DNA of 64,000 nt from Candidatus Sulfidibacterium hydrothermale (GTDB taxonomy: Bacteria > Bacteroidota > Bacteroidia > Bacteroidales > F082), in the NCBI RefSeq assembly GCF_020149915.1, contig NZ_CP083760.1, positions 2,170,001 to 2,234,000 of the forward strand, read 5' to 3'. This document shows, piece after piece, positions 25,575 through 48,095 of the stretch. The translations under genes and the position numbers were made by a program. The notes under the pieces are model-generated. The model ran no database searches. It was not told the origin of the DNA and worked only from the letters and a program-made list of their open reading frames with translations. Position 1 is the stretch's first letter, and each line of letters begins with the position of its first letter.

Positions 25575-25589
25575 GTTGTTATTATACTG

Positions 25590-26206: not shown

Positions 26207-26211
26207 AGTTA

Positions 26212-26526
26212 TTAATTATCTATTTTTTCTTTTTGTTTTTTCTTTTTGTCTTCGCTTAATGTTTCGTTAGTAATATTTAAAATTGTGGAAACATCATTAA
26301 CTGTTTGTTCTACTTTTGTTGAAGATGGTGATAAAATTGTTTTTAAATTAATAACATTTTCAATAACCTCTCCGATTTTTTCAAAAGTCCCGTCTGTTTT
26401 TGCAGCTTTATCTATACCTGCCCCAGTTAAAGAAATCGGCCCTTTAGATAAGTCTTTTTTCTTTCCCGTAGCTTCATTCATTATTTGAGCCACACCATAA
26501 ACAATTTGAGAAGAACCGTATGCCAT
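26212..26526 (-). CDS. Possible RHS tip fragment
   Basis: This 104-residue frame starts MAYGSSQIVYGVAQIMNEAT. It contains GPISLTGAGIDKAAKTDGTF and ends in a Lys-rich tail. Similar Gly/Ala-rich helical stretches precede the toxic domain in RHS tips. No core or toxic motif is present. It lies 5 bp before the membrane protein at 25676 and 12 bp after the protein at 26539, so it may be the remainder of a broken tip or an independent small gene. Confidence 0.45.
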   Translation of the reverse strand: MAYGSSQIVYGVAQIMNEATGKKKDLSKGPISLTGAGIDKAAKTDGTFEKIGEVIENVINLKTILSPSSTKVEQTVNDVSTILNITNETLSEDKKKKQKEKIDN

Positions 26527-26538
26527 TGCGCGGGTTTT

Positions 26539-27027
26539 TTATCGATACCATTTTATTAAATAAAATCTATTATTAATTGTATCAAGAATACCCAACAACA
26601 TAAAATCATAATAATAATTATTATTATGATTTGTTTTTTTATTAATTGTATAAACACCTGAAACAAACTTTGTTTGTATATTTCGTTCTATTGTATCCAT
26701 TTTTTCATACTTTAAAAAATTTGATATTGCTTGTTTTTCTTCTATTTTCAAATTACTGTAACGTTTCCATAGCAATTCATTTCTATCTTCCCAATATTTA
26801 TCAAATTTTGGGTAATTCTTCAAAGTATCAGTACTTATTTTAGCATAGAATTTATATGAAGTTAGCAGGTATGATGTCTTACACCAGTTTGATGTGTCTT
26901 TTTCTAATGTTGTCTTTCTAGGTAACCAAATATCGGTGGTCTCATCATTAAAGAATGAATACACAAGTGATGTAATAATAACAAGTAAGACAACTGTTAT
27001 AATAATTAGATATTTTTTTTTAATCAT
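26539..27027 (-). CDS. Membrane-anchored protein, candidate immunity protein
   Basis: This 162-residue protein has one N-terminal membrane anchor (YLIIITVVLLVIITSLVYSFF). A soluble, aromatic- and Asn-rich domain, probably periplasmic, follows (DIWLPRKTTLEKDTSNWCKT, YKFYAKISTDTLKNYPKFDK). The family was not recognised. It starts 24 bp after the end of the extended reading frame of RHS cassette D, which makes it the likely immunity gene for that tip. Confidence 0.6.
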   Translation of the reverse strand: MIKKKYLIIITVVLLVIITSLVYSFFNDETTDIWLPRKTTLEKDTSNWCKTSYLLTSYKFYAKISTDTLKNYPKFDKYWEDRNELLWKRYSNLKIEEKQAISNFLKYEKMDTIERNIQTKFVSGVYTINKKTNHNNNYYYDFMLLGILDTINNRFYLIKWYR

Positions 27028-27051
27028 TGAAATCTTTCATTAAATATTTAT

Positions 27052-28204
27052 TTAATAATTACGTACTTGTCCTATACCATAACCATATATTGGAAAAGCA
27101 GTACCTTTGCCGGGATATGAATAATCGGCAATCTTTTGTAAACTACTTCTGCTAAAATCAAATTTATCAATAGAACCGTCTGCACGTTTAACTAAATCAA
27201 CATTACCGTTGGCATCTAACAATTTCAATGTTAAAGTTCCATAAACACCACCTAGATTTATATTTCATGGTCTATGTAATGCTTCTTTGTTCGTGTTTAA
27301 TGGAAAGAAATTAACTCGTAATGTAGATTTTCCTTTAAAATCAGATACTGTAAGGTTAGAACTTTTAAAATTCATTTTGCTTATATCTACATACAATGGT
27401 TTTCCCCCTCCTGTATTATACCATAATAGCGCTTCTATAACCGTAACTTTCCCGTCCCAATCAGGACGACCTGGCAAAGATGAAAAATGTTGTTCCATTT
27501 TATCTTTTTGTTCTTTTGTCAAATTATCAGTTCCTAAATTATAAACCGCTGCTTCATTATGCTTCATTCCTTGTTTAAAATGACTTTTATCCATAACAAT
27601 GGCGTCACCTTGTAAACCTTTATCGTCTGTTCCCAAAAAATTACCTTTGGTGTCATAGATAGGATTATCAAATCTGCCGTCAGGGTCTATTCTTAAAATA
27701 GGATTATTCTGGCAGTAATTGTACGGGCTTACCCAGCTTTTTTCGCTTGCCATTGGATCCACCACAAACCACCTGCCCAAACTGGCATCATAAAACCTCG
27801 CCCCATAGTCGTACCAATCCAACCCAAAGCCGTCTTGTAATTCTTTTCCGTTATACAGATATTTCTTCGCCCCGGCGCTGCCCAAAGAGGTGGTGAGGTT
27901 GTTGTAGCCTTTGTGAGTGAGGCCGAAGGGGTAGTAATTGGTTTCCTTTACAATGGCTACCGTGCCGGCATTGCGCATGAAACTCAGGCGGTTGTTACCG
28001 AGATGGTCTTTATACTGGTACACATAGCGGTATCCCATGGCATCTTTGTAAATGTAGCCTTCGGGCTGTGCAATAAATTGCAAAACCCCGTTCTCATACT
28101 GAAAATCACCCTGGTAATCCACTGTTTTTATGACTGAGTTGTTTTCATATAACTGCTTGCGGAATTTTGTTCCGGCGGAGTAAATATAGAAAAAGTTTTG
28201 GTTT
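27052..28204 (-). pseudogene. Orphan RHS core with tip interrupted by an in-frame stop (cassette D)
   Basis: The open frame begins without an ATG near 28204 (NFFYIYSAGTKFRKQLYEN). It carries the longest core in the array (DYQGDFQYENGVLQF, YQYKDHLGNNRLSF, YYPFGLTHKGYNN, DASLGRWFVVDPMA). The tip contains GRPDWDGKVTVIEALLWY and LRVNFFPLNTNKEALHRP. A TGA at 27265-27267 interrupts it. The same frame then continues for 70 codons (NLGGVYGTLTLKLLDANGNV, GKGTAFPIYGYGIGQVRNY) to TAA at 27052. It reads as one nonsense mutation in an otherwise intact tip. A GTG at 28122 could start a 285-residue truncated product. Confidence 0.78.
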
Positions 28205-28306
28205 TAAGGCATGCGAAACGATTTGCGTACCAGAAGGTAATAACAAATTTTTATGGCCCAAGTCTCGCCCCTGCACGGGTCGGGCAGGAAGACTTGCGCC
28301 AGTTGG
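28195..28306. repeat. RHS cassette boundary repeat (diverged copy)
   Basis: It shares TAGAAAAAGTTTTGGTTTTA, GCATGCGAAACGATTTGCGT, AATAACAAATTTTTATGGCC and the end GGAAGACTTGCGCCAGTTGG with other copies, but with more substitutions. It lies directly before the core of cassette D. Confidence 0.8.
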
Positions 28307-28469
28307 GGTTTAATTTATACTTTGTGGAAAAATGATACACTCTATGTAGAAAATTACCAACAGAATATAGCAGCATAAGTTATGAAGCAAATCAATAGAC
28401 ATCAGGTAATGTGGAGATCAAGCCTTCTTTCGGCTAGTGTCAAAATTAATAAAACATATTGAAAATGAA

Positions 28470-28512
28470 ATGAAAATAAATTTGGATTTTAACACAGTAT
28501 CTTGAGCCGGTT
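28470..28512 (+). repeat. 43-bp repeat, copy 1
   Basis: ATGAAAATAAATTTGGATTT and the next 23 bases occur again at 29401-29443 with one mismatch. Each copy encodes the 11-codon frame MKINLDFNTVS-stop on the plus strand and lies just beyond the end of an immunity-like gene. The region 28307-28529 otherwise shows no gene. Confidence 0.7.
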
Positions 28513-28529
28513 GGGGGATTGGCCTAAAC

Positions 28530-28982
28530 TCATTTATTTTCGGAATTAATTTCATTTTTAATTTTTTCATTCAACTCCTTTACATACTGGCAGTTTGATT
28601 TAAAAAGATTCTTGTAATATTCTTTTGAACTCTTCATGAAATAGTATTTTTTATCTCTAAAATGAATAGCATAAATAAAAGGGATGATAAGGGAGCTTTT
28701 TATCTCTATAAATTCAGAGCTCCTTTGTTCATTCTTATTAAAGAGATTTCTGAGATAGAACCTATCTTTGTCATAATCAATGTTATATAACTTTGAATAA
28801 AGAACTAATAATAATAAAAAAAATATTATCAATATAATGGTTAAAAACAAATAGTTTACATTTCTGGTTGTAATGGTTGCAATAGAAAATATTAAAACTG
28901 ATATAACACCAAAAAAAATAAGCAGTTGTTGATACCAAATAATTTTATTATCTCCCAAAATCTTAGTTGCCTTGTCAATCAT
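28530..28982 (-). CDS. Membrane protein, candidate immunity protein
   Basis: This 150-residue protein has two transmembrane segments (LLIFFGVISVLIFSIATI, LFLTIILIIFFLLLLVLY). A PH/YcxB-like soluble domain follows (NIDYDKDRFYLRNLFNKNEQ, SEFIEIKSSLIIPFIYAIHF) and a charged tail. Similar architecture to the protein at 25676 suggests a shared immunity family. It begins inside the end of the truncated RHS core at 28975 (8-bp overlap), so the tip it once protected appears to be missing. Confidence 0.6.
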   Translation of the reverse strand: MIDKATKILGDNKIIWYQQLLIFFGVISVLIFSIATITTRNVNYLFLTIILIIFFLLLLVLYSKLYNIDYDKDRFYLRNLFNKNEQRSSEFIEIKSSLIIPFIYAIHFRDKKYYFMKSSKEYYKNLFKSNCQYVKELNEKIKNEINSENK

Positions 28983-29202
28983 CTTGTTTCACTTTATAAG
29001 TTATTTTATACCCCCCTAGCGCAAGTCTTGTGCGCAAGCTCCGTGTGTGGCTGACTTGGGCCACTAAATTAACATCAAAACTACATAAATACATAAAACC
29101 CAATTTATACTGATATTTCTTTGCTCCGGCACTTCCCAAAGAGGTGGTGAGGTTGTTGTAGCCTTTGTGGGTGAGGCCGAAAAATGGATAACGGGTTTTC
29201 AT
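28975..29202 (-). pseudogene. Truncated RHS core (cassette E)
   Basis: This has the same structure as the block at 25299: MKTRYPFFGLTHKGYNN to GSAGAKKYQY, then the post-core repeat (29013-29110), ending after 75 codons. There is no tip. The nucleotide sequence of core and repeat is almost identical to the other two truncated copies, so the duplication is recent. Confidence 0.72.
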
Positions 29203-29229
29203 GTTGTTATTATGCTGTTTGGTTTCCGG

Positions 29230-29362
29230 TGGATAAAGATAGAAAAAGTTTGGGATTTAAGGTATGCGAAACAATTTGTGTATAAGAAGGAAATAACAAA
29301 TTTCTTATGGTCCAGGTCTCGCTCCCGCACGGGCCGGGCGGGAAGACCTGCGCGAGTTGGGC
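29230..29362. repeat. RHS cassette boundary repeat
   Basis: This is the full copy, with ATGGTCCAGGTCTCGCTCCC and then CGGGCGGGAAGACCTGCGCG. It lies upstream of cassette E. The second copy of the 43-bp repeat (29401-29443) follows it on the plus strand. Confidence 0.86.
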
Positions 29363-29470
29363 GGAAGTTTTTTTAGGTTACAATAAAACTCATTAAAAAA
29401 ATGAAAATAAATTTGGATTTTAACACAGTATCTTGAGCCAGTTAGCGGGAGCATGGAGTAGAAACAGAAA

Positions 29471-29956
29471 TTACTTCACTAAATCTTCCTTTCTATATTT
29501 ATATTCAAGCACTATTGTAAAAATGAGGAGCAACGCAATTAGGTTAATTGCTAAATATGACAACTTCATATTTCCATCTGCTCGTATTAAATCATAAGTA
29601 ATAAATTGAGCTTTATCCCACCAAAAAGCAAAACTATGTCCCAATTTTTTGACAAAGCCTACTCCAACATAAGGTCCACTCACATTGAAATAGTAAAAGC
29701 CAAAGAAATGAAATTGAAACAACTGAGTTAGGTAATTTACACCTGATACAATTACGCCTTTCGGTGTTTTTATCCATAATAGTGTTATTCCACCTAATAG
29801 ATTGAGAAGTATAATTGGTATAACCGATAACAAAGCTTCAAACAAGTGATAACCTGTATTAGATGAACTCTTATAGAAAACATATATTCCAAAAAAGCCA
29901 CCTACTAATTGTAAAACAGCAGCCAGAATAATAATTATTCTTATTGTTTTTCTCAT
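29471..29956 (-). CDS. Four-helix membrane protein, candidate immunity protein
   Basis: This 161-residue protein has four hydrophobic segments (IRIIIILAAVLQLVGGFFGI, LFEALLSVIPIILLNLLGGI, ITLLWIKT-type segment, LSYLAINLIALLLIFTIVLE) and a short basic tail. Its family was not recognised. Its ATG overlaps the end of the truncated RHS core at 29953 by 4 bp. As with cassette E, the toxin tip is absent and only the likely immunity gene remains. Confidence 0.6.
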   Translation of the reverse strand: MRKTIRIIIILAAVLQLVGGFFGIYVFYKSSSNTGYHLFEALLSVIPIILLNLLGGITLLWIKTPKGVIVSGVNYLTQLFQFHFFGFYYFNVSGPYVGVGFVKKLGHSFAFWWDKAQFITYDLIRADGNMKLSYLAINLIALLLIFTIVLEYKYRKEDLVK

Positions 29957-30228
29957 TTTTCTCCCCCCCCTAGCGCAAGTCTTGTGCGCAAGCTCCGTGT
30001 GTGGCTGACTTGGGCCACTAAATTAACATCAAAACTACATAAATACATAAAACCCAATTTATACTGATATTTCTTCGCTCCGGCGCTGCCCAAAGAGGTG
30101 GTGATGTTGTTGTAGCCTTTTTGGGTGAGGCCGGAAAACAGGTATCGGGTTTTCATGCTGTTATTATACTGTCTGGTTTTCGGTGGATAAAGATAGAAAA
30201 AGTTTTGGGTTTGAGGTATGCCAAACAA
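29953..30228 (-). pseudogene. Truncated RHS core (cassette F)
   Basis: The frame reads NFFYLYPPKTRQYNN, MKTRYLFSGLTQKGYNN, GSAGAKKYQY and then the post-core repeat (29966-30065). The upstream sequence is in frame with the core, showing that the boundary region derives from coding RHS sequence in part. There is no tip. It is the first cassette on the minus strand. Confidence 0.72.
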
Positions 30229-30305
30229 TCTGCATATCAGAAGGAAGTAACAAATTTTTCATGGCCCGCACGGGCCGGACGGGAAGACTTGCGCCAGTTG
30301 GGGGG
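30170..30305. repeat. RHS cassette boundary repeat (right end of array)
   Basis: It contains GATAGAAAAAGTTTTGGGTT, AGTAACAAATTTTTCATGGC and GGACGGGAAGACTTGCGCCA. It ends in a G-tract that abuts the right copy of the 469-bp duplication, so the array and the duplication meet exactly here. Confidence 0.83.
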
Positions 30306-30774
30306 GGAAGCGGATTCCGCTAATGTCCCTTTGGAACAGTTTGTCCGGATAAAAAGCCTTATAACACAAGCATTGCTCAAGGAAAATGAGAAGAAAATAA
30401 AGCGGTTAACCGAGACAACGAATAAACTGAAAGTACAATTGTCTCTCTACACAAGCAAACCCTCCCAGGGCTTCTTCATTAAAATGTCACTCCGGAGAAG
30501 AAAACAATTGGAAAAGGAACTCAAAAGAGCTTTTCCCGGTATGGAATTTGAAGAAGCGGTGGAACAGGCAGCTTTTCGTTACCGGGACGATATTGACCTG
30601 GCCAAAACCTTTGCTGAAGCCGAAGCGGAAGAAAAACTGGAAGAAGAAAAGAAAAAACTTTTTGAAGATTGCAGCAAAGCCATCATAGCAAATATTGACA
30701 TGCACCTAAGAAATAAAGAATTACAAGACCTTATAAGTAAGAATAAGTAACCTAAAAGACAGTAGTATTTGTAT
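30306..30774 (+). pseudogene. 3' fragment of the zinc-ribbon coiled-coil gene (right duplication copy)
   Basis: Codons matching residues 69-214 of the protein at 20237 continue to the same stop at 30748-30750, without the start or zinc ribbon. A few differences cluster near the end (KKKLFEDC, ANIDMHLRNK). The fragment is fused at its 5' side to the boundary repeat. An open frame begins upstream at 30121, but that part is the complement of RHS sequence and is unlikely to be used. Confidence 0.85.
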
Positions 30775-32164: not shown

Positions 32165-32174
32165 TAATGCCAGC

Positions 32175-32307
32175 ACACAACAGCGGCTCATAGTGCATGC
32201 CGCAAATTGTGCTAAAATTGAAAATAAATCGTAAATTTGAGAATCTTTGTAAACAGAAAGATTATGAAAACCAATTGCGGCACACACCATAGCCACACCC
32301 GTTGGGC
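32175..32307 (+). repeat. attC-like recombination site 1 (133 bp)
   Basis: The ends ACACAAC (32175) and GTTGGGC (32301) resemble the RYYYAAC and GTTRRRY core sites. Inner arms TGCATGCCGCAAATTG and CAATTGCGGCACACACCATA pair with unpaired bases, as in attC hairpins. Closely related sites of 131-132 bp occur at 36317 and 41644. Confidence 0.62.
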
Positions 32308-32460
32308 ACATTTAATAATTTGATGGTAATTATTATGATAACAATTGATAAAACAACACAAGAAACAATAGTTAAATTTAACTACTCCCCATCTTTAGAC
32401 AACTCTTTTACAAAAATAAATTAGATTTTCTTTCTTCGTTTAATCATATTAAAAGAAAAC

Positions 32461-33273
32461 CTAAGCAGCCTGTTTGAACACTTTTACAGGCATTTTATAC
32501 GCTAATGACTGATGGGGTCTTTGCGTGTTGTAGAACTCTATGTAATCTTTAATTTTCTCATATAATTCCAGTCCGTCTTCCGATGGTTCCAAATATAACT
32601 TTTCGTATTTTATGTTTCTCCAAAACCTCTCTATAAAAATATTATCTATGGCTCGACCTTTACCATCCATACTGAAAGTAATCCCCTTACCGGTTACAAA
32701 CTCCGTAAATTCTGTTGCTGTAAACTGGCTTCCCTGATCGGTATTAATCATTTTAGGTTTGCCATGATCCTTTATGGCTTGCTCCAAAGTCTGTTTGCAC
32801 CATTGGGTTGTCATGGTATTCGACAATGACCACCCTACGATATACCTGCTGTAAAGGTCTATGATGGCAAAAAGGTACATATAACCGTTGCCAACGGGAA
32901 CATAGGTAATATCCATCGCCCAGACCTGGTTGGAATGGGTTATTTCTAAATTCCGCAACAAATAGGGAAATACCGTATGGCCTTCCCCCTTATGGGGCTT
33001 GCTCGTATTTGGACGTGGGCCGATGGCTTGCAAATCCATAAGCCGGTACAATCGTCGTACGCGTTTGGCATTGACCGGATACCCTATGTTTCGCAGATAG
33101 GTGGTCATGCGCATGACTCCATAAAAAGGTGTTTTCATGTATTGCTTGTCTATCAGCTTCATCAGTTCCTGATTGTAAGAACCCTCTTGTCGGGGAACAT
33201 AGTAGAAGCTGCTGCGGTTTACTTCTAAAAGTTCGCATTGCCGTTTGACGCTTATTTCTTCTTTCCTGTTCAC
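32461..33273 (-). CDS. IS3-family transposase OrfB (copy 1)
   Basis: This 270-residue DDE transposase has an HTH_21-like N-terminus (VKRQCELLEVNRSSFYY). The integrase core has Asp in VWAMDITYVPVG, Asp in INTDQGSQF and Glu in DNIFIERFWRNIKYE, and ends YIEFYNTQRPHQSLAY. It is normally made as an OrfAB fusion by a -1 shift at the A7 run near the end of orfA. Confidence 0.95.
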   Translation of the reverse strand: MNRKEEISVKRQCELLEVNRSSFYYVPRQEGSYNQELMKLIDKQYMKTPFYGVMRMTTYLRNIGYPVNAKRVRRLYRLMDLQAIGPRPNTSKPHKGEGHTVFPYLLRNLEITHSNQVWAMDITYVPVGNGYMYLFAIIDLYSRYIVGWSLSNTMTTQWCKQTLEQAIKDHGKPKMINTDQGSQFTATEFTEFVTGKGITFSMDGKGRAIDNIFIERFWRNIKYEKLYLEPSEDGLELYEKIKDYIEFYNTQRPHQSLAYKMPVKVFKQAA

Positions 33274-33296
33274 TTTTTGAAGTTTCGCTTTTCCGG

Positions 33297-33572
33297 CTAT
33301 TTCCCCAACACTTTTTTTAAGAAGTCAACTTCCATTTGCAGTTGGCCTACTTTCTTAAACAGGGCTTCTTTCTCTTTTTCAACATCTTCTTTCTTAGTAC
33401 CCTTTTCAAATACCGATGATGCTGATGATAAAAACTGGCTCTTCCAGGTAGAAATCTGATTCGGGTGTAATCCGTATTTCCTCCCCAGTTCCTGAATCGT
33501 TTCTCTTTCCTGCAGGGCTTCCAATACTACTTTCGTTTTGAACCTTGATGTGTACTTTTTTCTCTTTTTCAT
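33297..33572 (-). CDS. IS3-family transposase OrfA (copy 1)
   Basis: This 91-residue protein has an HTH (KTKVVLEALQERETIQELGR, LHPNQISTWKSQFL) and a C-terminal leucine-zipper-like helix (LFKKVGQLQMEVDFLKKVLG). The codons TTA AAA AAA GTG near its end form a slippery A7G site. A -1 shift there joins it in frame to OrfB, giving a continuous SVGEIAGKAKLQKVNRKEE junction. Confidence 0.93.
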   Translation of the reverse strand: MKKRKKYTSRFKTKVVLEALQERETIQELGRKYGLHPNQISTWKSQFLSSASSVFEKGTKKEDVEKEKEALFKKVGQLQMEVDFLKKVLGK

Positions 33573-34823
33573 AACAACAAGTTTAATCAATTTTTCTAAC
33601 TTAACTCGTTGTCCAGTTTTTGGGGTGTATTATAAAATCATTAGATTTGATAGCAAAAGATTTATTATTGCATCGACAATTAAAAATAAACAATTCTTTT
33701 TTTTCACTCATTGATATAGAAATCTACTATTGGCACAAATTACATCAAGATGATTATGCAAAAGGAGTGGACCATAAACGGCCTTATGGGCAACTAGAAA
33801 TGCATCGCTATGGAATAGATTTTTCTTTGGGGAACAACAAAGATGAGGGATTTGGTGGTATTCTTTTTCGTGGTTTATATGATTTTTCAGCAAATACAAT
33901 TATAAAAAAGTCGCATATTGTAAAAACAATATTTAATCAATTTGTTTTAGGTGAAAAAAATAGTTTTGAATTGGTTGAAAAAAATGTTCCTTGGCAAAAT
34001 GTATTTGTTTCAGAAAGATTAAATCTTGGAAATGCGGATGTGAGAAACAAAAAACAATTTGTAAAAAGAAAGTATAAGTATTTAGCAAAAGATAAAAGAA
34101 TATTCAAGAAATATGAAGATAAAGAAAAAATATTTAAAAATTCAGATTTATCAAATGAAGAAATTAAACAAATATTAGGATATTCAATAAGCAAATGATA
34201 ACCGACTTCGAAACAAATACAATTTATTTTTCTGAACGATTAAAGACAGATAAAAGATTTACTAAAACATTTAAAGAAATCACAAGTGTTTTAAAATCAA
34301 TAGGAATAGAGCCAAAATTATTACCAAAAACAAAAGATATTTGGGCAAGAGACTACATGCCTATTCAAGTAACAAAAGAAAAATTTATTGAATATCGGTA
34401 TGACCCTGATTATCTTCAAAAAGCAGAGAAAGGTTATAGAAATTTAAAATCATATCCAGATATTGTTTGTGATTTGATTCAACTTACCACAGAAAAATCC
34501 GATATAATTCTTGATGGCGGGAATGTTGTAAAATCTAACAATTGTTTAATATTAACTGATAAAGTTGTTGTTGAAAATAGATTGTCATATTCTAAGACAG
34601 AATTAATTAAGAAACTGAAAAGAATATTTAAAGTTGAAAAAATAATATTGATACCTTGGGATAAAAAAGAAAGATTTGGTCATTCAGATGGAGTATTAAG
34701 ATTTATAAATAGCAATACTGTTTTAATTAGTGAGATTTACGAATATGACACAAAACTCTTGTATAATACACCCCAAAAACTGGACAACGAGTTAAGTTAG
34801 AAAAATTGATTAAACTTGTTGTT

Positions 34824-35099
34824 ATGAAAAAGAGAAAAAAGTACACATCAAGGTTCAAAACGAAAGTAGTATTGGAAGCCCTGCAGGAAAGAGAAACGAT
34901 TCAGGAACTGGGGAGGAAATACGGATTACACCCGAATCAGATTTCTACCTGGAAGAGCCAGTTTTTATCATCAGCATCATCGGTATTTGAAAAGGGTACT
35001 AAGAAAGAAGATGTTGAAAAAGAGAAAGAAGCCCTGTTTAAGAAAGTAGGCCAACTGCAAATGGAAGTTGACTTCTTAAAAAAAGTGTTGGGGAAATAG
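34824..35099 (+). CDS. IS3-family transposase OrfA (copy 2)
   Basis: This is the same 91-residue HTH protein as at 33297. The ATG at 34824 (MKKRKKYTSRFK) is preferred over an upstream in-frame TTG. The slippery run A7G lies at about 35077-35085, 14 bases before the stop. It is the probable site of the -1 shift that makes the OrfAB transposase. Confidence 0.93.
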   Translation: MKKRKKYTSRFKTKVVLEALQERETIQELGRKYGLHPNQISTWKSQFLSSASSVFEKGTKKEDVEKEKEALFKKVGQLQMEVDFLKKVLGK

Positions 35100-35122
35100 C
35101 CGGAAAAGCGAAACTTCAAAAA

Positions 35123-35935
35123 GTGAACAGGAAAGAAGAAATAAGCGTCAAACGGCAATGCGAACTTTTAGAAGTAAACCGCAGCAGCTTCTACTATGTT
35201 CCCCGACAAGAGGGTTCTTACAATCAGGAACTGATGAAGCTGATAGACAAGCAATACATGAAAACACCTTTTTATGGAGTCATGCGCATGACCACCTATC
35301 TGCGAAACATAGGGTATCCGGTCAATGCCAAACGCGTACGACGATTGTACCGGCTTATGGATTTGCAAGCCATCGGCCCACGTCCAAATACGAGCAAGCC
35401 CCATAAGGGGGAAGGCCATACGGTATTTCCCTATTTGTTGCGGAATTTAGAAATAACCCATTCCAACCAGGTCTGGGCGATGGATATTACCTATGTTCCC
35501 GTTGGCAACGGTTATATGTACCTTTTTGCCATCATAGACCTTTACAGCAGGTATATCGTAGGGTGGTCATTGTCGAATACCATGACAACCCAATGGTGCA
35601 AACAGACTTTGGAGCAAGCCATAAAGGATCATGGCAAACCTAAAATGATTAATACCGATCAGGGAAGCCAGTTTACAGCAACAGAATTTACGGAGTTTGT
35701 AACCGGTAAGGGGATTACTTTCAGTATGGATGGTAAAGGTCGAGCCATAGATAATATTTTTATAGAGAGGTTTTGGAGAAACATAAAATACGAAAAGTTA
35801 TATTTGGAACCATCGGAAGACGGACTGGAATTATATGAGAAAATTAAAGATTACATAGAGTTCTACAACACGCAAAGACCCCATCAGTCATTAGCGTATA
35901 AAATGCCTGTAAAAGTGTTCAAACAGGCTGCTTAG
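35123..35935 (+). CDS. IS3-family transposase OrfB (copy 2)
   Basis: The predicted protein is identical to that at 32461, with an intact DDE triad. The frame is open upstream through GEIAGKAKLQKV to the slippery site, so the GTG at 35123 is only the first start-like codon. An OrfAB fusion is the expected active product. Confidence 0.95.
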   Translation: MNRKEEISVKRQCELLEVNRSSFYYVPRQEGSYNQELMKLIDKQYMKTPFYGVMRMTTYLRNIGYPVNAKRVRRLYRLMDLQAIGPRPNTSKPHKGEGHTVFPYLLRNLEITHSNQVWAMDITYVPVGNGYMYLFAIIDLYSRYIVGWSLSNTMTTQWCKQTLEQAIKDHGKPKMINTDQGSQFTATEFTEFVTGKGITFSMDGKGRAIDNIFIERFWRNIKYEKLYLEPSEDGLELYEKIKDYIEFYNTQRPHQSLAYKMPVKVFKQAA

Positions 35936-36316
35936 GTTTTCTTTTAATATGATTAAACGAAGAAAGAAAATCTAATTTATTTTTGTAAAAGAGTTGTCTA
36001 AAGATGGGGAGTAGTTAACTTGTATCGTCTTAAACAAAACGGAATTCAATATAAATTTCTTAGGTTCAATGTGAATAAAAGAAATAAACGAAATTGGGCA
36101 TATATTAATTTCCTTCAAACGAAAGATTTGATTCTTTTACCAAAATTTGAAATAGATGAAGATGAACAAGCGTTAGAACAAATAAAAAGATACTATCCTG
36201 ATTATGCTGAAAATGATAGAATTGCTCAAATTAATATGACAAAAATTGTTAAATATGGCGGAGCATTAAATTGCATTACTTGGACAATAAAAGATTGGAA
36301 ATGAAAGAATAACGTG

Positions 36317-36447
36317 CCCTAACAAAGAACATAGTGCATGCCGCAAGTAGTTGTAAATATAAAAGTTGAAATACAAAATAAAATTAGTCTTAGATTGAAA
36401 AATAATCGCATCAAACTGCGGCACACACCATATTTAAACCGTTAGCC
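36317..36447 (+). repeat. attC-like recombination site 2 (131 bp)
   Basis: The ends are CCCTAAC (36317) and GTTAGCC (36441). The inner arms AACATAGTGCATGCCGCA and TGCGGCACACACCATATT pair imperfectly, and the middle is AT-rich. It follows the stop of the interrupted deiminase gene by 12 bp. Confidence 0.62.
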
Positions 36448-39940: not shown

Positions 39941-40034
39941 CGCTAACATCGGCTCATACTGCATGTCGCAAATTGTGTAAAGCATGTGCCTTAACGAACA
40001 ACGGGCCATTTAATTAGGCATACAGGGGTTGGCA
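39941..40034 (+). repeat. attC-like recombination site 4 (94 bp, weak)
   Basis: CGCTAAC (39941) followed by ATCGGCTCATACTGCATGTC matches the 5' arms of the better sites. The 3' side AATTAGGCATACAGGGGTTG ends at GTTGGCA (40028). Pairing is partial, and the middle contains the 39051-type motif, so the site may be a recombinant. Confidence 0.5.
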
Positions 40035-40842: not shown

Positions 40843-41649
40843 ATGGAGATAAAAGAAGTTAATAGGAATATTCCAGAAGACAGGGAAAATTCAAATGAAC
40901 GATTTAGAGTTCGCTACAAAGATAAAAGCAAATTTGATCTTTTAGTAGTTAACATCTGTCGTATAAAAACCAATGAAATTCAGGCTTTCAGTTTCAAATC
41001 TTCAGATTTACCAGACAAGGATTCAATACATTTTTCAACTTCGATTAACAATGGAAAATTTCAGGTTGATTGGAAAGGAATATCTTCTTCTCCTAAAACT
41101 AAAAAGAAAATAATAGACAAAGTTCCTGAAAAGAAAAAACCTGTAACTGAAACGAATACAGTTCAAATTGAATCTTTTAAGCCAATTGTCGGCAAGAATC
41201 CCAAAGTCCTCATTCTTGGCACTATGCCAGGAAAGGATTCATTACGACTAAATGAATATTATGCAAATTCAAGAAATGTATTCTGGAAAATAATTTATGA
41301 ATTGCATAACTCAGAGATTCAGTACGATTATGAATCTAAGACTGAATTTTTAAAACAAAATGGAATATCAATCTGGGATGTTTGCCACAAAGCAAATCGA
41401 GAATCAAGTTTAGATTCCGATATTAAGAATGAAGTACCAAACGAATTAAATGACTTTTTAAAAGCGAATCCATCAATAAAAATAATTGCATTTAATGGAC
41501 AAAAAGCAGAAAAGTTATATGACAAATACTTTGAAAGATTTGACGGAATAAATTACATGACTTTGCTTTCAACAAGTCCAGCGAATGCATCATATTCCTT
41601 TCAAGAAAAAATAGATAATTGGAACAAGATAATAAAGCCCAGCTCATAA
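40843..41649 (+). CDS. Hypoxanthine/uracil DNA glycosylase with N-terminal extension
   Basis: This 268-residue protein has a C-terminal domain (residues 118-268) that is a UDG-superfamily DNA-deoxyinosine (hypoxanthine) glycosylase: VLILGTMPGKDSL, YYANSRNVFWKII, NGISIWDVCHKA, IIAFNGQKAEKLY and LLSTSPANAS. It would excise deaminated bases. The first 110 residues are an added domain (NERFRVRYKDKSKFDLLVVN) not found in typical members of about 160 residues. The stop codon overlaps the attC-like site that follows. Confidence 0.85.
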   Translation: MEIKEVNRNIPEDRENSNERFRVRYKDKSKFDLLVVNICRIKTNEIQAFSFKSSDLPDKDSIHFSTSINNGKFQVDWKGISSSPKTKKKIIDKVPEKKKPVTETNTVQIESFKPIVGKNPKVLILGTMPGKDSLRLNEYYANSRNVFWKIIYELHNSEIQYDYESKTEFLKQNGISIWDVCHKANRESSLDSDIKNEVPNELNDFLKANPSIKIIAFNGQKAEKLYDKYFERFDGINYMTLLSTSPANASYSFQEKIDNWNKIIKPSS

Positions 41650-41775
41650 CAGCAGCTTATAGTCCATGTCGCAAATTGTGCAAAATTGAAAATAAATCGT
41701 AAATTTGAGAATATTTACAAATAGAAAGTTTATTAAAATCAATTGCGGCACATCGCATAGCCCTGGCCGTTAACT
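41644..41775 (+). repeat. attC-like recombination site 5 (132 bp)
   Basis: The ends are TCATAAC (41644) and GTTAACT (41769). The arms GCTTATAGTCCATGTCGCAA and TTGCGGCACATCGCATAGCC pair well with bulges. The middle (AAAATTGAAAATAAATCGTA) is nearly identical to that of site 1, so the two share recent ancestry. Confidence 0.63.
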
Positions 41776-41815: not shown

Positions 41816-42562
41816 ATGAAAAAATTTATTTTATTATTACTAGCAATCTCTATTTTCTTGGCCTATTGTAATATGGGGCCAAATCATTATAGTAAAGGCA
41901 AGCAAAATCTTTCTGTAGGGAAATACCTTGAAGCTTCTAAAGAATTTGATCTTGTTCCATTAAATAGTAAAAATAAAGATAGTGCTATCATATTGAAGAA
42001 TTATTGTGTTCGGTTATATCAAGCAGCCCTAAAAAGAAAAGAAAGTATTGAAACGGGGAAAGAATATTTATATAAATTTAAAAACTTTAATTCAATTGTT
42101 CCCGAGTATAGATATAGTTTAAATAATTTAACGGAAGAAGTTGCTTTTTTTGGGAAAGTATCAGAATTTATTTCTAAATATTCTACATCAAGGGATCTTG
42201 GGTTACAAAAACTTGCTGAACAATTAAAAAAACTATTAATTTACAGACAAAAGGTTGAATTTCCAATAATTAGAAAAAAAAGTATCACTTTAATGAATGA
42301 AGTATTATGGAAGCATGATATTAAAGCGTATGTAAAAAGTATTGATAGGAAAACTAATGACAACGCAATATTAATTTTTGTAAGTAGCATTTTCATAGCT
42401 GATCAAAATATAATTGGTTTTGAAGTACCATTGGAATCTAGGTTTAAAAAATTTAGATTTTCTAAGGTTGAATATAAATTGTCTAAATATGATTCTAATC
42501 TTGCAACTTTTCATTTAAATTCACCCTCTGATACCAATATAAATCCGTCGTCATATGATTAA
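41816..42562 (+). CDS. Putative lipoprotein with TPR-like start
   Basis: This 248-residue protein has an N-terminal signal of 17 hydrophobic residues ending LAYC (Cys18), a possible lipobox. YSKGKQNLSVGKYLEASKEF next to it looks like a TPR-type helix pair. A later region (KAYVKSIDRKTNDNAILIFV) is strand-rich. The family is not identified. It follows attC-like site 5 by 40 bp but has no recognisable site after it. Confidence 0.62.
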   Translation: MKKFILLLLAISIFLAYCNMGPNHYSKGKQNLSVGKYLEASKEFDLVPLNSKNKDSAIILKNYCVRLYQAALKRKESIETGKEYLYKFKNFNSIVPEYRYSLNNLTEEVAFFGKVSEFISKYSTSRDLGLQKLAEQLKKLLIYRQKVEFPIIRKKSITLMNEVLWKHDIKAYVKSIDRKTNDNAILIFVSSIFIADQNIIGFEVPLESRFKKFRFSKVEYKLSKYDSNLATFHLNSPSDTNINPSSYD

Positions 42563-42907
42563 ATGTAATAAAGCAATGTTCTAATTATTTCTTTCAAATT
42601 CAGAAAATTTTGTCTTTTTCATCTTCTTGTTTTTTTGACCGTTTAAAATTAATAATTTGTTCTGACGCGCCCGCTCTGGCGGGCGCGTCCAACTCTAATT
42701 TTAAATGGCCGAATTTCAGGGAAGCTGACATTATCACACTAGGTTTAATATTACCAAAAACAATAAAGTTTACTTATTGATGAGATCGGAAAGAGTTTGA
42801 CATCAGTATTGCGAGTATATCTGTCGCTGTTCAACGCCAGCAACCATGCCAGCAATGCCTATACTAAATCAAAGTGCTTTTGGTTCATTTAAATCCCAAA
42901 AGTACAC
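42563..42907. other. Non-coding stretch with hairpins at a segment junction
   Basis: No gene is seen. The stretch holds a GC-rich perfect hairpin (42664-42689: GACGCGCCCGC / GCGGGCGCGTC, loop TCTG) and the left copy of a 21-bp direct repeat (42700-42720). It also has a longer imperfect inverted repeat (TCAAAGTGCTTTTGG ... CCAAAAGTACACTTTGA, about 42876-42912). Base composition changes here from AT-rich cassettes to the more balanced genes downstream. Confidence 0.6.
42700..42720 (+). repeat. 21-bp direct repeat, left copy
   Basis: TTTAAATGGCCGAATTTCAG plus G is identical at 46880-46900. AAGCT(G/A)AC follows both, with one extra G in the left copy. The pair encloses the four-gene segment 43018-46604 and may be its attachment or target site. 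Confidence 0.8.
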
Positions 42908-42938
42908 TTTGATTTGTAACCCGTATTAAATACCTTTG
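42908..42938 (+). promoter_or_regulatory. Consensus Bacteroidota promoter
   Basis: TTTG (42908-42911), exactly 19 bases, then TACCTTTG (42931-42938). It lies 80 bp before the gene at 43018 and would drive the macro-like/phosphoesterase pair. The -33 element sits in the right arm of an imperfect inverted repeat that could be an operator. Confidence 0.75.
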
Positions 42939-43017
42939 TTTATCATTTCTGCTTGATTAACAAGGCTGGATTTTAAGGAATTACAATTATAAAAAGAGCC
43001 CGTAAAAACTAAACAAC

Positions 43018-44016
43018 ATGTGGTTTGAAGAACTAACCGGATTTAAAGAAGAAAACCCGCAGCAAGTCCGGAACAACATCAGAATTACGGGTAACAAATT
43101 AATTTCCAAGGTTAACCAAAAAGTGTATGCCTATGGAGAATTGGAGGTTCCTACGCTTGAAGTGCTGAGAAACCGGTTAAATACGGACAAAATCTCCAAA
43201 TCAAAAATCCAGGTTAGTGAAGTAATAGGTGATGTACAGCAGTTGCACCAGCAAAAAGAAAATAACGGAGCACTCTTTCAGGTCGCTTCCCAGTTTAACC
43301 TGTTGGAAATGACAGGGCCGGATGTAATTCCCGAAGAAGGAGTAGGAATTTATGAAAGAGACAATACACAAGGTCCGGCTTGCGCCATAGCTTGTGGGGC
43401 AGGAACCATATTCAGAAATTATTTCGTCGATATTGACGGGCAAAAAGGTCAAACAGCCACCCGGCAAATCAATTGCCTGGATGAAATCAGTCGTTATTTT
43501 AATAATAAAAAACAACACTATTGGAGAATGTCTAATGGTTATGCACTGTTCACTAAAGAAGGATTACATGCCATCAATCATCAGATAGAAAACTGGTCAA
43601 GGCAAGAATATGAAATGCTAAAAGGAAAGCTTAGAATTGGAATTCAATGGGATACAGAAGTTACAATCAACCAAAACAAAAATATTGTTACACAAGCCTA
43701 TTGTTCAGCATTACCTGTGGCCTATTCACTTTTTGAATCCGAACTTCTGGAAAGATTTGCACGACTTATTTTAGAAGCTACTTATGAAGCCACTTTACTT
43801 GCCGCCATTGAAAATTTTCAAAGAACGGGTAACAACAAGGTTTTTCTTACTTTGGTCGGTGGTGGCGTTTTCGGCAATAAAACAGAATGGATTATAGATG
43901 CTGTTGAAAATGCAGTCAGAAAATTCATTACCATACCGTTAGACATTAAAATGGTCAGTTACAACCGGTCAAACTATTGGATTAAACAATTTATAAATCG
44001 AATCACTCCGAATTGA
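43018..44016 (+). CDS. Possible macro-domain-like protein
   Basis: This 332-residue cytoplasmic protein was not assigned to a named family. Conserved-looking segments are ENNGALFQVASQFNLLEM (near residue 80), DNTQGPACAIACGAGTIFRN (near 118), and NNKVFLTLVGGGVFGNKTEW (near 275) followed by an amphipathic helix. The last resembles the G-G-G-V-F-G loop and helix that end macro domains and related ADP-ribose-binding or -hydrolysing folds. The association is tentative. The gene is 36 bp before a metallophosphoesterase and shares its promoter. Confidence 0.55.
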   Translation: MWFEELTGFKEENPQQVRNNIRITGNKLISKVNQKVYAYGELEVPTLEVLRNRLNTDKISKSKIQVSEVIGDVQQLHQQKENNGALFQVASQFNLLEMTGPDVIPEEGVGIYERDNTQGPACAIACGAGTIFRNYFVDIDGQKGQTATRQINCLDEISRYFNNKKQHYWRMSNGYALFTKEGLHAINHQIENWSRQEYEMLKGKLRIGIQWDTEVTINQNKNIVTQAYCSALPVAYSLFESELLERFARLILEATYEATLLAAIENFQRTGNNKVFLTLVGGGVFGNKTEWIIDAVENAVRKFITIPLDIKMVSYNRSNYWIKQFINRITPN

Positions 44017-44052
44017 AATCCTCATAAGCCCTTATCATAACGAAAACATGAA

Positions 44053-44814
44053 ATGATTTTACAATACGCATCAGACCTGCATCTGGAATTTCCCGAAAAC
44101 AAGGAATATATTAAACAAAACCCGTTGAAACCTTTGGGTGAAATACTGGTGCTGGCCGGCGACATCGTGCCGTTTGCAGCCATGAACCAACAGCGTGATT
44201 TTTTTGATTTTGTTTCCAAAAATTTCAAATACACTTTTTGGGTTCCGGGAAACCACGAATATTATCATTTCGATGTAAAAAACAAATGCGGAACATTTCA
44301 TGAAAAAATAAGAGACAACGTCTTTCTGGTCAACAACACAACAGTTATCCATGAAGATGTAAAATTTATCTTTTCTACTTTGTGGTCAAAAATCAGACCG
44401 GTCTATCAGTGGCAAATTGAAAGGGGGATGAGTGATTTCCATGTCATAAAATATGCCGGACACCGCTTTTCTGCGGAAAGGTTTAATGAGCTGCACGATG
44501 AAAGCTTGCAATTTATTGAGCAGGAACTAAATAAAAAACATTCAGGAAAGACAGTGATAGTTACACATCATGTGCCTACCTTTTTGAATTACCCTGAAGA
44601 CTATAAAAACAGCATTCTAAACGATGCCTTTGCCGTAGAACTTTTTGATTTAATCGATGCAAAAGGGCCAAACTACTGGATATACGGTCATAATCACCAT
44701 AATCCGGCAGACTTTACTATTGGCAAAACAAAGCTGTTGACCAATCAACTGGGGTATGTAAAGTATAATGAACACTCTGCATTTAACAGCACTAAAAATA
44801 TAAAGATAGCATAA
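44053..44814 (+). CDS. Calcineurin-like metallophosphoesterase
   Basis: This 253-residue protein carries the complete dimetal phosphoesterase motif set: YASDLHLEF (D-x-H), VLAGDIV, VPGNHEYY, VTHHVPT and GHNHH. No signal peptide is visible, so it acts in the cytoplasm on a phosphoester or cyclic phosphate that cannot be named. Its tight linkage to the possible macro-domain protein suggests a joint role in ADP-ribose or RNA-end chemistry, which is inference. Confidence 0.92.
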   Translation: MILQYASDLHLEFPENKEYIKQNPLKPLGEILVLAGDIVPFAAMNQQRDFFDFVSKNFKYTFWVPGNHEYYHFDVKNKCGTFHEKIRDNVFLVNNTTVIHEDVKFIFSTLWSKIRPVYQWQIERGMSDFHVIKYAGHRFSAERFNELHDESLQFIEQELNKKHSGKTVIVTHHVPTFLNYPEDYKNSILNDAFAVELFDLIDAKGPNYWIYGHNHHNPADFTIGKTKLLTNQLGYVKYNEHSAFNSTKNIKIA

Positions 44815-44817
44815 TTA

Positions 44818-44847
44818 TTGTTAATGAGAATATTATATGTATATTTG
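44818..44847 (+). promoter_or_regulatory. Promoter of the AbiE-like pair
   Basis: TTG (44818-44820), 19 bases, then TATATTTG (44840-44847). It begins after the phosphoesterase stop and gives a leader of about 75 nt. It implies separate control of the following two genes. Confidence 0.65.
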
Positions 44848-44925
44848 CACATTATCATTTATATATGAAAACATGCATTATTAATGATAACAACAATGAT
44901 AGTCTTAATAACCAGCTGAATAAAG

Positions 44926-45894
44926 ATGAATAATGTAATAGAATACATACAGGAAATAACCGGCCAGAAAATAAACCTGGAAAGAGTGAGTAAAAAAGAG
45001 GTGAAAAACATACCCATATATATACTCAACGACTATACTATTTGGAAAGGAAAGCTGTTTGGCAAGACCATATTCTTTTTAGAAAAAATTTCTCCCGGAC
45101 ATTTTACCCCGCTTCAATATGAAAAACAAATGGGTCTGCTCGAAAAAAAGCTACAAAACCCGATTGTATTTGTATTACCCGAAATAAAATCATACGATAG
45201 GAACAGGCTAATCCGGAGGCGGATTAACTTTATTATAGGCAACAAACAAATTTTTATTCCCCACTTATTGGTTGATTTAAAGGAATACCGGGTTAAACCA
45301 TTACAAAGCACCTTCTTACAACCTGCTGCTCAGGTTATCGTGTTGTACCATCTGCAAAGACAAAGCCTGAATGAAATGACTTATAAACAAATTGCAGGGT
45401 TGTTGCAATATCCTTATTTAACAATAAGCCGGGCAGTGGAAAACCTGCTTCTTCTTGAAATATGCAAAACAGAAGGCAAAAAAGAGAAAAAGGTCATTTT
45501 TAAAACGGATAAAAAGGAACTGTGGGAAAAGGCACTGCCGTTAATGAGGACACCGGTTAAGAAAAAAGTGTTTATTAATCAGAATTTGCCAAATAACATG
45601 GTATTTAAAACCAATATCAATGCATTGGCATTTTATACCGATATGAATGATGATGGGCACAAATATTATGCAGTAAATCATCAGGACTTTTTAAACCTGA
45701 AAAAAGAAAAGAAAATAAAGACGATAAGTAACTACGACGGCGATTATGTTATCGAACTATGGCGCTACAATCCGGGTAAATTGACCGTGAATAATTACGT
45801 CGATCCGCTTTCTTTGTACTTGTGTTACAAAGACACCGCTGATGAGCGTGAAGAAATGGCATTAGAACAATTATTAGAAAGCGTAAAATGGTAA
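44926..45894 (+). CDS. Winged-helix regulator, AbiEi-like antitoxin candidate
   Basis: This 322-residue protein has a middle region with a winged helix-turn-helix (MTYKQIAGLLQYPYLTISRA, near residue 150). The N-terminal part is strand-rich (KLFGKTIFFLEKISPGHFTP), and the C-terminal domain contains DMNDDGHKYYAVNHQDFLNL. It overlaps the downstream nucleotidyltransferase gene by 7 bp. This two-gene layout is that of AbiE-type (type IV) toxin-antitoxin or abortive infection systems, with this protein as DNA-binding antitoxin. Sequence similarity to classical AbiEi is not obvious by eye. Confidence 0.72.
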   Translation: MNNVIEYIQEITGQKINLERVSKKEVKNIPIYILNDYTIWKGKLFGKTIFFLEKISPGHFTPLQYEKQMGLLEKKLQNPIVFVLPEIKSYDRNRLIRRRINFIIGNKQIFIPHLLVDLKEYRVKPLQSTFLQPAAQVIVLYHLQRQSLNEMTYKQIAGLLQYPYLTISRAVENLLLLEICKTEGKKEKKVIFKTDKKELWEKALPLMRTPVKKKVFINQNLPNNMVFKTNINALAFYTDMNDDGHKYYAVNHQDFLNLKKEKKIKTISNYDGDYVIELWRYNPGKLTVNNYVDPLSLYLCYKDTADEREEMALEQLLESVKW

Positions 45895-46604
45895 GAGGAA
45901 TAGAAAAATTCCGGGAATATTTTAAGGACTTCCCCAATAGTTATATCATTATCGGTGGCACTGCCTGTGATATTATTATTGAAGATGCCGGTTTGAAACC
46001 ACGGGCCACTAAAGATTTTGATATCATACTGGTTGTAGAAGCACTGGAACCTGAATTTGTTCAACAATTTTGGTCGTTCATAAAAGATGGCAATTATGGT
46101 CAAAAAGAAAAAAGCCCTGAAGAACGTAAGTATTACCGTTTCCTGAATCCGGAAAATACATCATTTCCAAAACAGGTAGAGTTGTTTTCACGCATACCCG
46201 ACTTGCTCGATCTGGATATTGATACGCACCTGACCCCCATTCCGGTTGATGATGATTTATCAAGCCTTTCAGCCATTTTGATGGATGAAGATTACTACAA
46301 CTTTACAATACAGCACAGTACAGTTGAAGAAGGCGTACATCTTGCCAATATTGAAGCTTTGATTTGCCTGAAAGCAAAGGCATTCATTGATATGTCAGCA
46401 CGTAAAGCCAATGGTGAAAATATTGACGATAGAAACATCCGTAAACATAAAACAGATGTATTTAGAATGGCTGTCATGCTTCCTGCTGAAAATACCTTTG
46501 AACTACCACCAGCAATAAAAAACGACCTTCAAATCCGGCATAGCATTTTGGATAAACCACCCGAATTTAAGCCTATCTTCCGGATTAATTGTTCATTTAA
46601 ATGA
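45888..46604 (+). CDS. Nucleotidyltransferase, AbiEii-like toxin candidate
   Basis: This 238-residue protein has the nucleotidyltransferase core: SYIIIGGTACDIII (near residue 18) and RATKDFDIILV with the two catalytic Asp residues (near 43). VHLANIEALICLKAKAFIDM follows near 155, as in AbiEii and related enzymes. AbiEii/MenT-type enzymes block growth by adding nucleotides to tRNA or other targets. The gene is translationally coupled to the regulator before it. No stop-adjacent terminator is visible. Confidence 0.8.
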   Translation: MVRGIEKFREYFKDFPNSYIIIGGTACDIIIEDAGLKPRATKDFDIILVVEALEPEFVQQFWSFIKDGNYGQKEKSPEERKYYRFLNPENTSFPKQVELFSRIPDLLDLDIDTHLTPIPVDDDLSSLSAILMDEDYYNFTIQHSTVEEGVHLANIEALICLKAKAFIDMSARKANGENIDDRNIRKHKTDVFRMAVMLPAENTFELPPAIKNDLQIRHSILDKPPEFKPIFRINCSFK

Positions 46605-46976
46605 CTGTACTCCATTACCAGTTATTCGTAAGGAATTCTCTTACATACCTAACTTTTTTTTGAGATATTGGGAAATATTGGGCAATATTAGGAAACATTT
46701 TTCCCATTCCGGTAAATAACGGAAATATTGTAACCACCTATAATAAACCAAGGCTAAATATCTACATATCACAAAATTATATATTCTTGTTCATTATTTA
46801 CAACCGTTCACGTAACGTGAACAATGAATTTTTGTGAACGCCCAATAACCAAACAAGCGGTCAAGTTGTATAAATTTAATTTAAATGGCCGAATTTCAGG
46901 AAGCTAACAACCAAAAAAAGATAAACAATTAAAAAAAGACGATATCCTGTAAATTTCAAACTTGTTTCCTTTTTAT
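46605..46976. other. AT-rich non-coding stretch at the right end of the island
   Basis: No gene is seen. It contains three GAAATATTG-like repeats (46669-46735), a palindrome GTTCACGTAACGTGAAC (46806-46822) with a further TGTGAACG nearby, and the right copy of the 21-bp repeat (46880-46900). The palindrome could be a regulator binding site. Confidence 0.55.
46880..46900 (+). repeat. 21-bp direct repeat, right copy
   Basis: It is identical to 42700-42720. It closes the 4.2-kb segment carrying the macro-like, phosphoesterase and AbiE-like genes, 134 bp before the right attachment site of the whole island. Confidence 0.8.
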
Positions 46977-47033
46977 TTTGTACGCTATTTGTACCCTTTT
47001 TTCTTAACCAATTGATTCATAGAAGCAATTAGT

Positions 47034-47052
47034 TTCTGTATCGGGAAGTAAC
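47034..47052 (+). repeat. Right attachment site (attR)
   Basis: TTCTGTATCGGGAAGTAAC repeats the mnmE 3' end (FCIGK-stop) with one synonymous difference from 12472-12490. Two TTTGTAC copies (46977, 46988) lie just inside it. Sequence to the right should be the original chromosome downstream of mnmE. Confidence 0.87.
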
Positions 47053-47159
47053 AACTTGGTAACCATTGATAATGCCCGTTCCTTTAAAATTAGCACAAAA
47101 ACTCCGGCCACTGTTTTCAAAAAGGAAATTTTAAATTTTCACTTTTTTATTCTCTTTTT

Positions 47160-47333
47160 TTATAATTTTACCACAACCCAAAAAAACAAAAACCTTTGCG
47201 TGTAACCTGCCCGGTATATTATTCCACGTTTTTAACAAGCCATTTAACCATCCGGTTAAACACAAAAAAGTACGGTTACCCGAAAATGTTTTTGGGGATA
47301 GTGGGTTATTAACGTAGACTTAAGGAGTTATTA
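47160..47333 (+). repeat. Leader-like repeat, copy 2
   Basis: It is related to 30970-31146: TTTACCACAACCCAAAAA, CCTTTGCG, GTATATTATT, GGTTACCCGAAAATGTTTTT and TTAAGGAGTTA align in order. It ends at GTTATTA (47327), just before the cassette-like gene at 47376. No gene is seen in 47053-47375. Confidence 0.5.
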
Positions 47334-47375
47334 GTCCCCATTTGAAGAAAGACACAACATACCAAGATAACAGAA

Positions 47376-47939
47376 ATGAAACATAGAAATTTAGGAATTT
47401 GGGACGTTCGGGAAAAATCTGAATTTTGGAAAATACTGGCAAAAAAAATAAATGCAGATTTTAAAATAACAACGACAGTTTCAAAAGACTTTAATAAGTT
47501 GGAATTAAAAGCAGAATACAAAAAAGTAATGATTACTTTCACAGAAACGGACACAACACCTCTCTTTGTTAATTGTATATTTAGACAGACAAGCAACCTG
47601 ACTTGGTTTGAAATATCCAAAAGTGATTTTATTGAGCAAATAATGAATAAGTTTAGCAGAAAAAAGATAACGTCAAGAAACAGAGAATTTAATCAGAACT
47701 ACCTTTCAAAAACAATTGATAATCACAAAATCAAATCGATAATTAACAACAAAAACATTACAGACTTGATACTAAATCAAAACTTAACTTTTATTGGTGG
47801 AAAACCAGAAAAAGATGGAGAATTTCACTTAAGTTTAAATGTTCATCGAAACGTAAATAATATAGAACAACTTGAAGCAATTTATGATTTAACAACTAAA
47901 CTTATTGATGAATTTAAAGGAATAAAAAACGGCTACTAA
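47376..47939 (+). CDS. Hypothetical cassette protein
   Basis: This 187-residue, Lys/Asn-rich soluble protein was not recognised. It starts MKHRNLGIWDVREKSEFWKI and alternates predicted strands and helices (LELKAEYKKVMITFTETDTT, QLEAIYDLTTKLIDEFKG). It is AT-rich like the cassettes inside the island although it lies outside attR. Its TAA stop is inside the first arm of an attC-like palindrome, as for the glycosylase gene at 40843. Confidence 0.62.
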   Translation: MKHRNLGIWDVREKSEFWKILAKKINADFKITTTVSKDFNKLELKAEYKKVMITFTETDTTPLFVNCIFRQTSNLTWFEISKSDFIEQIMNKFSRKKITSRNREFNQNYLSKTIDNHKIKSIINNKNITDLILNQNLTFIGGKPEKDGEFHLSLNVHRNVNNIEQLEAIYDLTTKLIDEFKGIKNGY

Positions 47940-47992
47940 CAATAAGCGTTCTGATTGGGCCGTCCCGACCATCAGAACGCTTATTGTTATGG
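47934..47992 (+). repeat. Short attC-like palindrome (59 bp)
   Basis: TACTAAC (47934) and GTTATGG (47986) enclose perfect 18-bp arms AACAATAAGCGTTCTGAT / ATCAGAACGCTTATTGTT with a 15-base loop. The length fits small attC sites, but there are no bulged bases, and no T-tract follows. A cassette site is therefore favoured over a terminator only weakly. Confidence 0.5.
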
Positions 47993-48095
47993 ATTCAACA
48001 AACTGCATAGTAAACTGAAAGATTTACGCATTAAAACGACAAAAAAACCTTAGATTTGTAAAATAAAAAGTAACCACAATTATAAAATACCAAAG

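Follow-up and report, generated by a model that had tools for sequence, protein, structure and literature searches.

The DNA analysed here is a 64,000-nucleotide stretch of Candidatus Sulfidibacterium hydrothermale (contig NZ_CP083760.1, positions 2,170,001 to 2,234,000), which we call the window. A segment of it at 42700-46900 carries four genes, which a first-pass annotation had read as one possible defence module bounded by identical 21-bp repeats. The four open reading frames on which that reading was built are all present, on the plus strand:

43018-44016, + strand: gene 1, macrodomain protein with a predicted PARG-like fold (332 aa); an independent neighbour, outside the module
44053-44814, + strand: gene 2, metallophosphoesterase (MPE), calcineurin-like, PF00149 (253 aa); assigned from Pfam and motifs
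44926-45894, + strand: gene 3, winged-helix protein (322 aa); proposed antitoxin/repressor
45888-46604, + strand: gene 4, AbiEii/MenT-like nucleotidyltransferase (NTase; 238 aa); assigned from alignment and profile-profile match

The reading that we favour, with a probability of roughly 0.55, is that genes 2-4 (44053-46604) make up a mobile three-gene variant of the AbiE/MenAT-type (type IV) NTase toxin-antitoxin systems, in which the MPE would act on the product or the state of the NTase.

Families of genes 2 to 4

Pfam confirmed gene 2 as the metallophosphoesterase that it had been taken for, well above the cut-off (PF00149, E 1.1e-12, 49.2 bits, cut-off 21.5), and its active-site and metal-binding motifs are complete (DxH...GD, GNHE, THH and GHNH). 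It is also the only one of the four genes with a match in PADLOC, a partial one to the candidate PDC-S10; genes 1, 3 and 4 matched none of the PADLOC system models. Relatives of gene 2 that are unlinked to an NTase were seen near RtcB-like RNA ligase genes (L181, L185) and with type I restriction-modification genes on both sides (L182, L184).

Across 27 sequences from three phyla, gene 4 conserves the motifs GG...RATKDxD, E98, K162 and KH..D190, and the NTase motifs I-IV (GG/GS, DxD, Lys, Asp) are represented by G23 and G24, D43 and D45, K162 and D190, which are invariant in this set (n = 27). Its profile aligned over 157 columns with a profile of 20 AbiEii proteins from related genomes (hhalign, probability 88, E 3e-6), and gave no credible match against PDB. 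In gene 3, a MarR-like winged helix-turn-helix occupies the middle of the protein (residues ~127-207), flanked by an alpha/beta domain on the N-terminal side and a further domain on the C-terminal side; this winged helix is the only part that resembles known folds, and AbiEi was not among the matches listed. Gene order, motifs and the AbiEii profile match mark genes 3 and 4 as an overlapping pair of AbiE type, in agreement with the first-pass annotation.

Linkage of the metallophosphoesterase to the winged-helix/NTase pair

We examined 23 NTase loci from related genomes of the same order, retrieved with wide flanks and searched with tblastn. Gene 3 adjoins gene 4 in all 23, and in four plasmid loci as well, mostly with a 7-nt overlap, and an MPE is adjacent to the pair in 14 of the 23. 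In these 14 loci, an MPE of type A lies upstream in six and downstream in five, and the remaining three (L105, L116, L121) have an MPE of a second subtype. Intact three-gene loci occur, for example, in L113 and L107. Where the MPE precedes the pair, it is on the same strand with a gap of 52-148 nt; where it follows, its start usually overlaps the stop of the NTase. No such MPE was found in control loci (0/20 ordinary AbiEii (PF08843) loci with wide flanks, 0/25 with short flanks, and 0/11 gene-1 loci), and the difference in MPE adjacency between 14/23 NTase loci and 0/20 AbiEii loci has a Fisher p of 1e-5. The NTase family itself is distributed sporadically, in 26 of 393 genomes, with members also on plasmids and in IMG/VR contigs. 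In a literature search of partial coverage, no paper turned up that links a metallophosphoesterase to AbiE-type NTases.

In the NTase tree, a single clade (94/86) comprises all 17 MPE-linked members and four unlinked ones, two of which lie at contig ends; an MPE is absent from the other clade, which comes mainly from proteobacterial plasmids, IMG/VR contigs and some Bacteroidota. The MPE tree groups the downstream MPEs in a single clade (99/89) and scatters the upstream ones among unlinked MPEs; descent of all linked MPEs from one origin was rejected (p-AU 1e-4). Since the linked MPEs are not one clade, either the association arose repeatedly or the MPE was replaced; the trees do not separate gain from loss. 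One NTase clade has thus become coupled to MPEs of different descent, and of the evidence gathered here this speaks most strongly for a functional tie.

The same data bear on another explanation, in which chance brings two independent sets of mobile accessory genes, the MPE and the winged-helix/NTase pair, into the same islands. Each is also found apart from the other, and the arrangement with the MPE upstream evolved more than once, as such gathering would allow. Yet the genes are directly adjacent, with start/stop overlaps, one NTase clade is nearly always linked, a different MPE subtype occurs as a replacement, and the 20 AbiEii control loci have no MPE; we therefore regard chance clustering as improbable.

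A second genome of the same genus, G005, carries the three genes at an unrelated site. A blastn search with window positions 42000-48000 against this locus (L122) returned a single match:

44019-46533, + strand: block of MPE, winged-helix and NTase genes shared with G005 (84% DNA identity)

The left border of the block falls 3 nt past the stop of gene 1, and the right border inside gene 4 (46533). The G005 copy lies near a tRNA-Asp gene and has neither gene 1 nor the 21-bp repeats.

Gene 1 is an independent neighbour

Gene 1 had no meaningful match in Pfam, NCBIfam, PADLOC or PHROGs, nor in PDB by sequence, single or profile. An AlphaFold model was computed from an eight-sequence alignment (pLDDT 87.7, pTM 0.90), and its best structural match is the PARG of D. 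radiodurans (Z 17.8, root-mean-square deviation 3.6, 231 residues), followed by YmdB (Z ~14) and other macrodomains. The model supports a macrodomain fold of PARG-like type, and with it the earlier guess of a macro domain in this 332-residue protein. The PARG catalytic signature, GGG-x6-8-QEE, is absent from the sequence; D115 and Q118 are invariant residues of the protein.

Relatives of gene 1 occur as single genes in Bacteroidota chromosomes, on plasmids of Aureibacter and Nostoc, and in the sequences of more than 300 plasmids, most of them conjugative, of IncF type and from Klebsiella and E. coli, where they are annotated "hypothetical protein"; the predicted macrodomain fold can now be assigned to this plasmid protein. 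The family may have a part in the establishment of plasmids or in counter-defence. Among phage records (tblastn) gene 1 had no match, nor did a single-sequence scan of viral contigs give one; an alignment-based scan of the viral contigs gave seven relatives, including some on phage-like contigs. At L045:5401-7260, the gene-1 macrodomain is found inside a 619-aa protein, on a contig that resembles a giant virus: it has a ribonucleotide reductase subunit along with further traits of large DNA viruses of eukaryotes. The plasmid relatives at L008, L009, L188 and L189 lie between traI and repA, near parM, or beside a gene for an SOS-response-associated peptidase.

No relatives of genes 2, 3 or 4 were found near gene 1 relatives in the flanks examined. 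Genes 1 and 2 are not a conserved pair: gene 1 relatives never stand beside gene 2 relatives in these loci. Gene 1 is a separate accessory gene that lies upstream by chance, and not part of the module.

The 21-bp repeats are insertion sequence ends

The repeats that flank the segment belong to the following features:

42599-42730: IS3-family OrfA-side end remnant, 132 bp, 95% identity to the intact copy at G000:C1:90885-92117
42700-42720, + strand: left 21-bp repeat, inside the 132-bp insertion sequence (IS) end remnant
46880-46909: IS3-family terminal repeat, 30 bp, containing the right 21-bp repeat (46880-46900)

The 21-bp sequence TTTAAATGGCCGAATTTCAGG is present at both positions where it had been reported, and these are its only exact copies in the window (0.01 expected in shuffled windows). 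A third copy, with one mismatch, lies elsewhere in the same genome and is the OrfA-side end of the intact IS3-family element just named, which has imperfect terminal repeats. Both copies at the segment are IS3-family ends in the same orientation; they are thus transposon ends, and not the module borders that they had been thought to be. This suggests that ISs came and went on either side, and that the segment does not move as one piece. Integration (att) sites that would be found empty elsewhere were considered as an alternative identity of the repeats and rejected, the third copy being the end of an intact element; viral contigs had no exact copies.

These results, together with those on gene 1, dispose of the four genes as a single defence module bounded by 21-bp sites. 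The genes do share a strand, close spacing and possibly, for genes 1 and 2, a promoter; against this, the repeats are IS3 ends, gene 1 is unlinked in the other loci examined, and G005 carries genes 2-4 only. As a conserved unit the four-gene arrangement is already refuted, and we hold a module of this extent to be extremely unlikely. What survives of it is the recurrence of genes 2-4 together, the MPE belonging with the winged-helix/NTase pair.

Base composition and promoters

The G+C content of the segment (35-38%) differs from that of the cassettes to its left (about 30-34%), as the first-pass annotation had it, although the contrast is modest; the distal flanks have 42-48%. A sigma-70 promoter scan is uninformative for Bacteroidota, whose promoter consensus is TTG/TTTG-N19-TAnnTTTG. 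By this consensus, a candidate site can be read at about 42908-42938, before gene 1, and another before gene 3:

44818-44847, + strand: putative promoter before gene 3 (TTG-N19-TATATTTG), of Bacteroidota-type consensus and conserved in the sister genome G005
42854-42928: hairpin repeat, 75 nt, found about 30 times across the genome, on either strand (fold z -4.45)

Promoter sites are therefore readable at both places claimed for them; the proposed sharing of the first one by genes 1 and 2 has the consensus and a 36-nt gap as its only grounds. The hairpin repeat, directly 5' of gene 1, overlaps the putative promoter of that gene.

Proposed mechanism and alternatives

The AbiEii relatives MenT1 and MenT3 extend tRNA acceptor 3' ends and block charging (PMC10435456), and MenT/AbiEii relatives can be switched off by phosphorylation (PMC11375011). 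By analogy with MenT1 and MenT3, the gene 4 NTase would most likely be a toxin adding nucleotides to RNA, for example to the tRNA 3' end, while gene 3 would repress the operon and neutralise the NTase. MPEs are a class of enzymes that cleave phosphodiesters and phosphomonoesters, and the product of gene 2 might strip the added nucleotides or a regulatory phosphate, thereby resetting or restraining the NTase; the unit may also affect phage.

Several observations weigh against a toxin-antitoxin unit of this kind. Gene 4 does not reach the cut-off of Pfam AbiEii (PF08843) and has no match to it, the scan of G000 likewise gave none, and with five gene 4 relatives the best E was 0.029, in three of the five and below the cut-off. 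Genes 3 and 4 are absent from the family libraries used, including PADLOC, NCBIfam and PHROGs. Many NTase loci, among them all the proteobacterial plasmid ones seen, have no MPE, and the gene 2-type MPE, present in 64 of 393 genomes, is linked to an NTase in about 12 of them and so is more often unlinked; some unlinked MPEs adjoin RtcB or genes of type I restriction, so a general function of this enzyme is possible. The C-terminus of gene 4 after about residue 216 is unlike that of all relatives (238 aa against roughly 250-260 aa), which suggests recombination or a frameshift at the right border of the module, and this copy may be impaired as a result. A premature stop interrupts gene 3 in G005, possibly an error of the draft assembly, and either copy, that of G005 or the one described here, may be impaired.

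The main rival is an RNA-repair unit that includes no toxin: the MPE would heal RNA ends (for instance 2',3'-cyclic phosphates), the NTase would rebuild the 3' end, and the winged-helix protein would control expression. An NTase together with a phosphoesterase suits end healing, the two unlinked MPE relatives at L181 and L185 adjoin genes for RtcB-like RNA ligases, and viral gene neighbourhoods for RNA repair include calcineurin-like enzymes (PMC9503650). However, the unit has no ligase, the strict order of overlapping regulator and NTase is typical of toxin-antitoxin pairs, and the spread is sporadic, on mobile DNA, with the NTase pair often lacking the MPE. We consider RNA repair unlikely, if less so than the other alternatives.

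The pairing of an NTase with a phosphodiesterase would also fit CBASS-like or AMPylation-like logic: the NTase would produce a signalling nucleotide or modify a protein, and the MPE would break down the one or undo the other. Signals made by NTases are used in several defence systems. Two points make us give this little credence: no effector gene accompanies the unit, and the closest detectable kin of gene 4 is AbiEii/MenT, for which the known substrate is tRNA (PMC10435456).

Returning to the toxin-antitoxin reading, a more specific version of it can be put forward tentatively, as a possibility clearly below even odds: a family of NTase toxin-antitoxin systems with an exchangeable eraser, in which the MPE would remove the nucleotides or phosphate and make the toxic mark reversible, one NTase clade having come to depend on erasers drawn from several MPE lineages. 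AbiE/MenT-type NTase toxins rank with the most common systems of abortive infection, and AbiE is reported to be the fourth most abundant phage defence system (PMC11375011). The repeated recruitment of a phosphoesterase beside such an NTase would point to a specific enzyme reversing tRNA extension, or to a new control step.

Other features of the window

To the left of the segment, attC-like imperfect repeats (32165-32310, 36316-36445, 39943-40010 and 41647-41775) bound small cassettes, whose products include a DNA-deoxyinosine glycosylase and ImmA/IrrE-HTH with DUF4411. The genome gave no integron integrase above cut-off, so we keep the term "attC-like" for this array. Two identical inverted IS copies of 1263 bp, with an IS3-type transposase gene (32375-33637 and 34759-36021), flank a gene matching a Porphyromonas-type peptidyl-arginine deiminase. 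At 20400-30600 there is an extensive set of long direct repeats, with core and tip genes of the RHS type.

Comparison with known systems

Gene 1 is like bacterial PARG and macrodomain proteins (the PARGs of D. radiodurans and T. curvata, and YmdB) in its predicted fold; it differs from bacterial PARG in having no Pfam match and no GGG-x6-8-QEE signature, and it is unlinked to genes 2-4. Gene 2 shares family and active-site motifs with the calcineurin-like MPEs (PF00149; PADLOC PDC-S10; PHROG 1649), from which its recurrent coupling to the NTase pair sets it apart, as does the merely partial match to PDC-S10. The mycobacteriophage protein Gp48 (PMC12287305) is likewise a metallophosphoesterase active in phage-host conflict; unlike gene 2, it is phage-encoded and targets host DNA integrity, and the mechanism reported for it includes no NTase partner.

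The closest counterparts are the AbiE/MenAT type IV toxin-antitoxin systems (AbiEii PF08843; MenT1 and MenT3), with which genes 3 and 4 have in common the order of overlapping regulator and NTase, and gene 4 the GG...DxD and downstream Lys and Asp motifs and homology at the profile-profile level. In contrast to them, gene 4 falls below the Pfam cut-off and has a shorter N-terminus, gene 3 carries its winged helix in mid-protein with no AbiEi match found, and, in one clade of the NTase, an MPE stands as the third gene.

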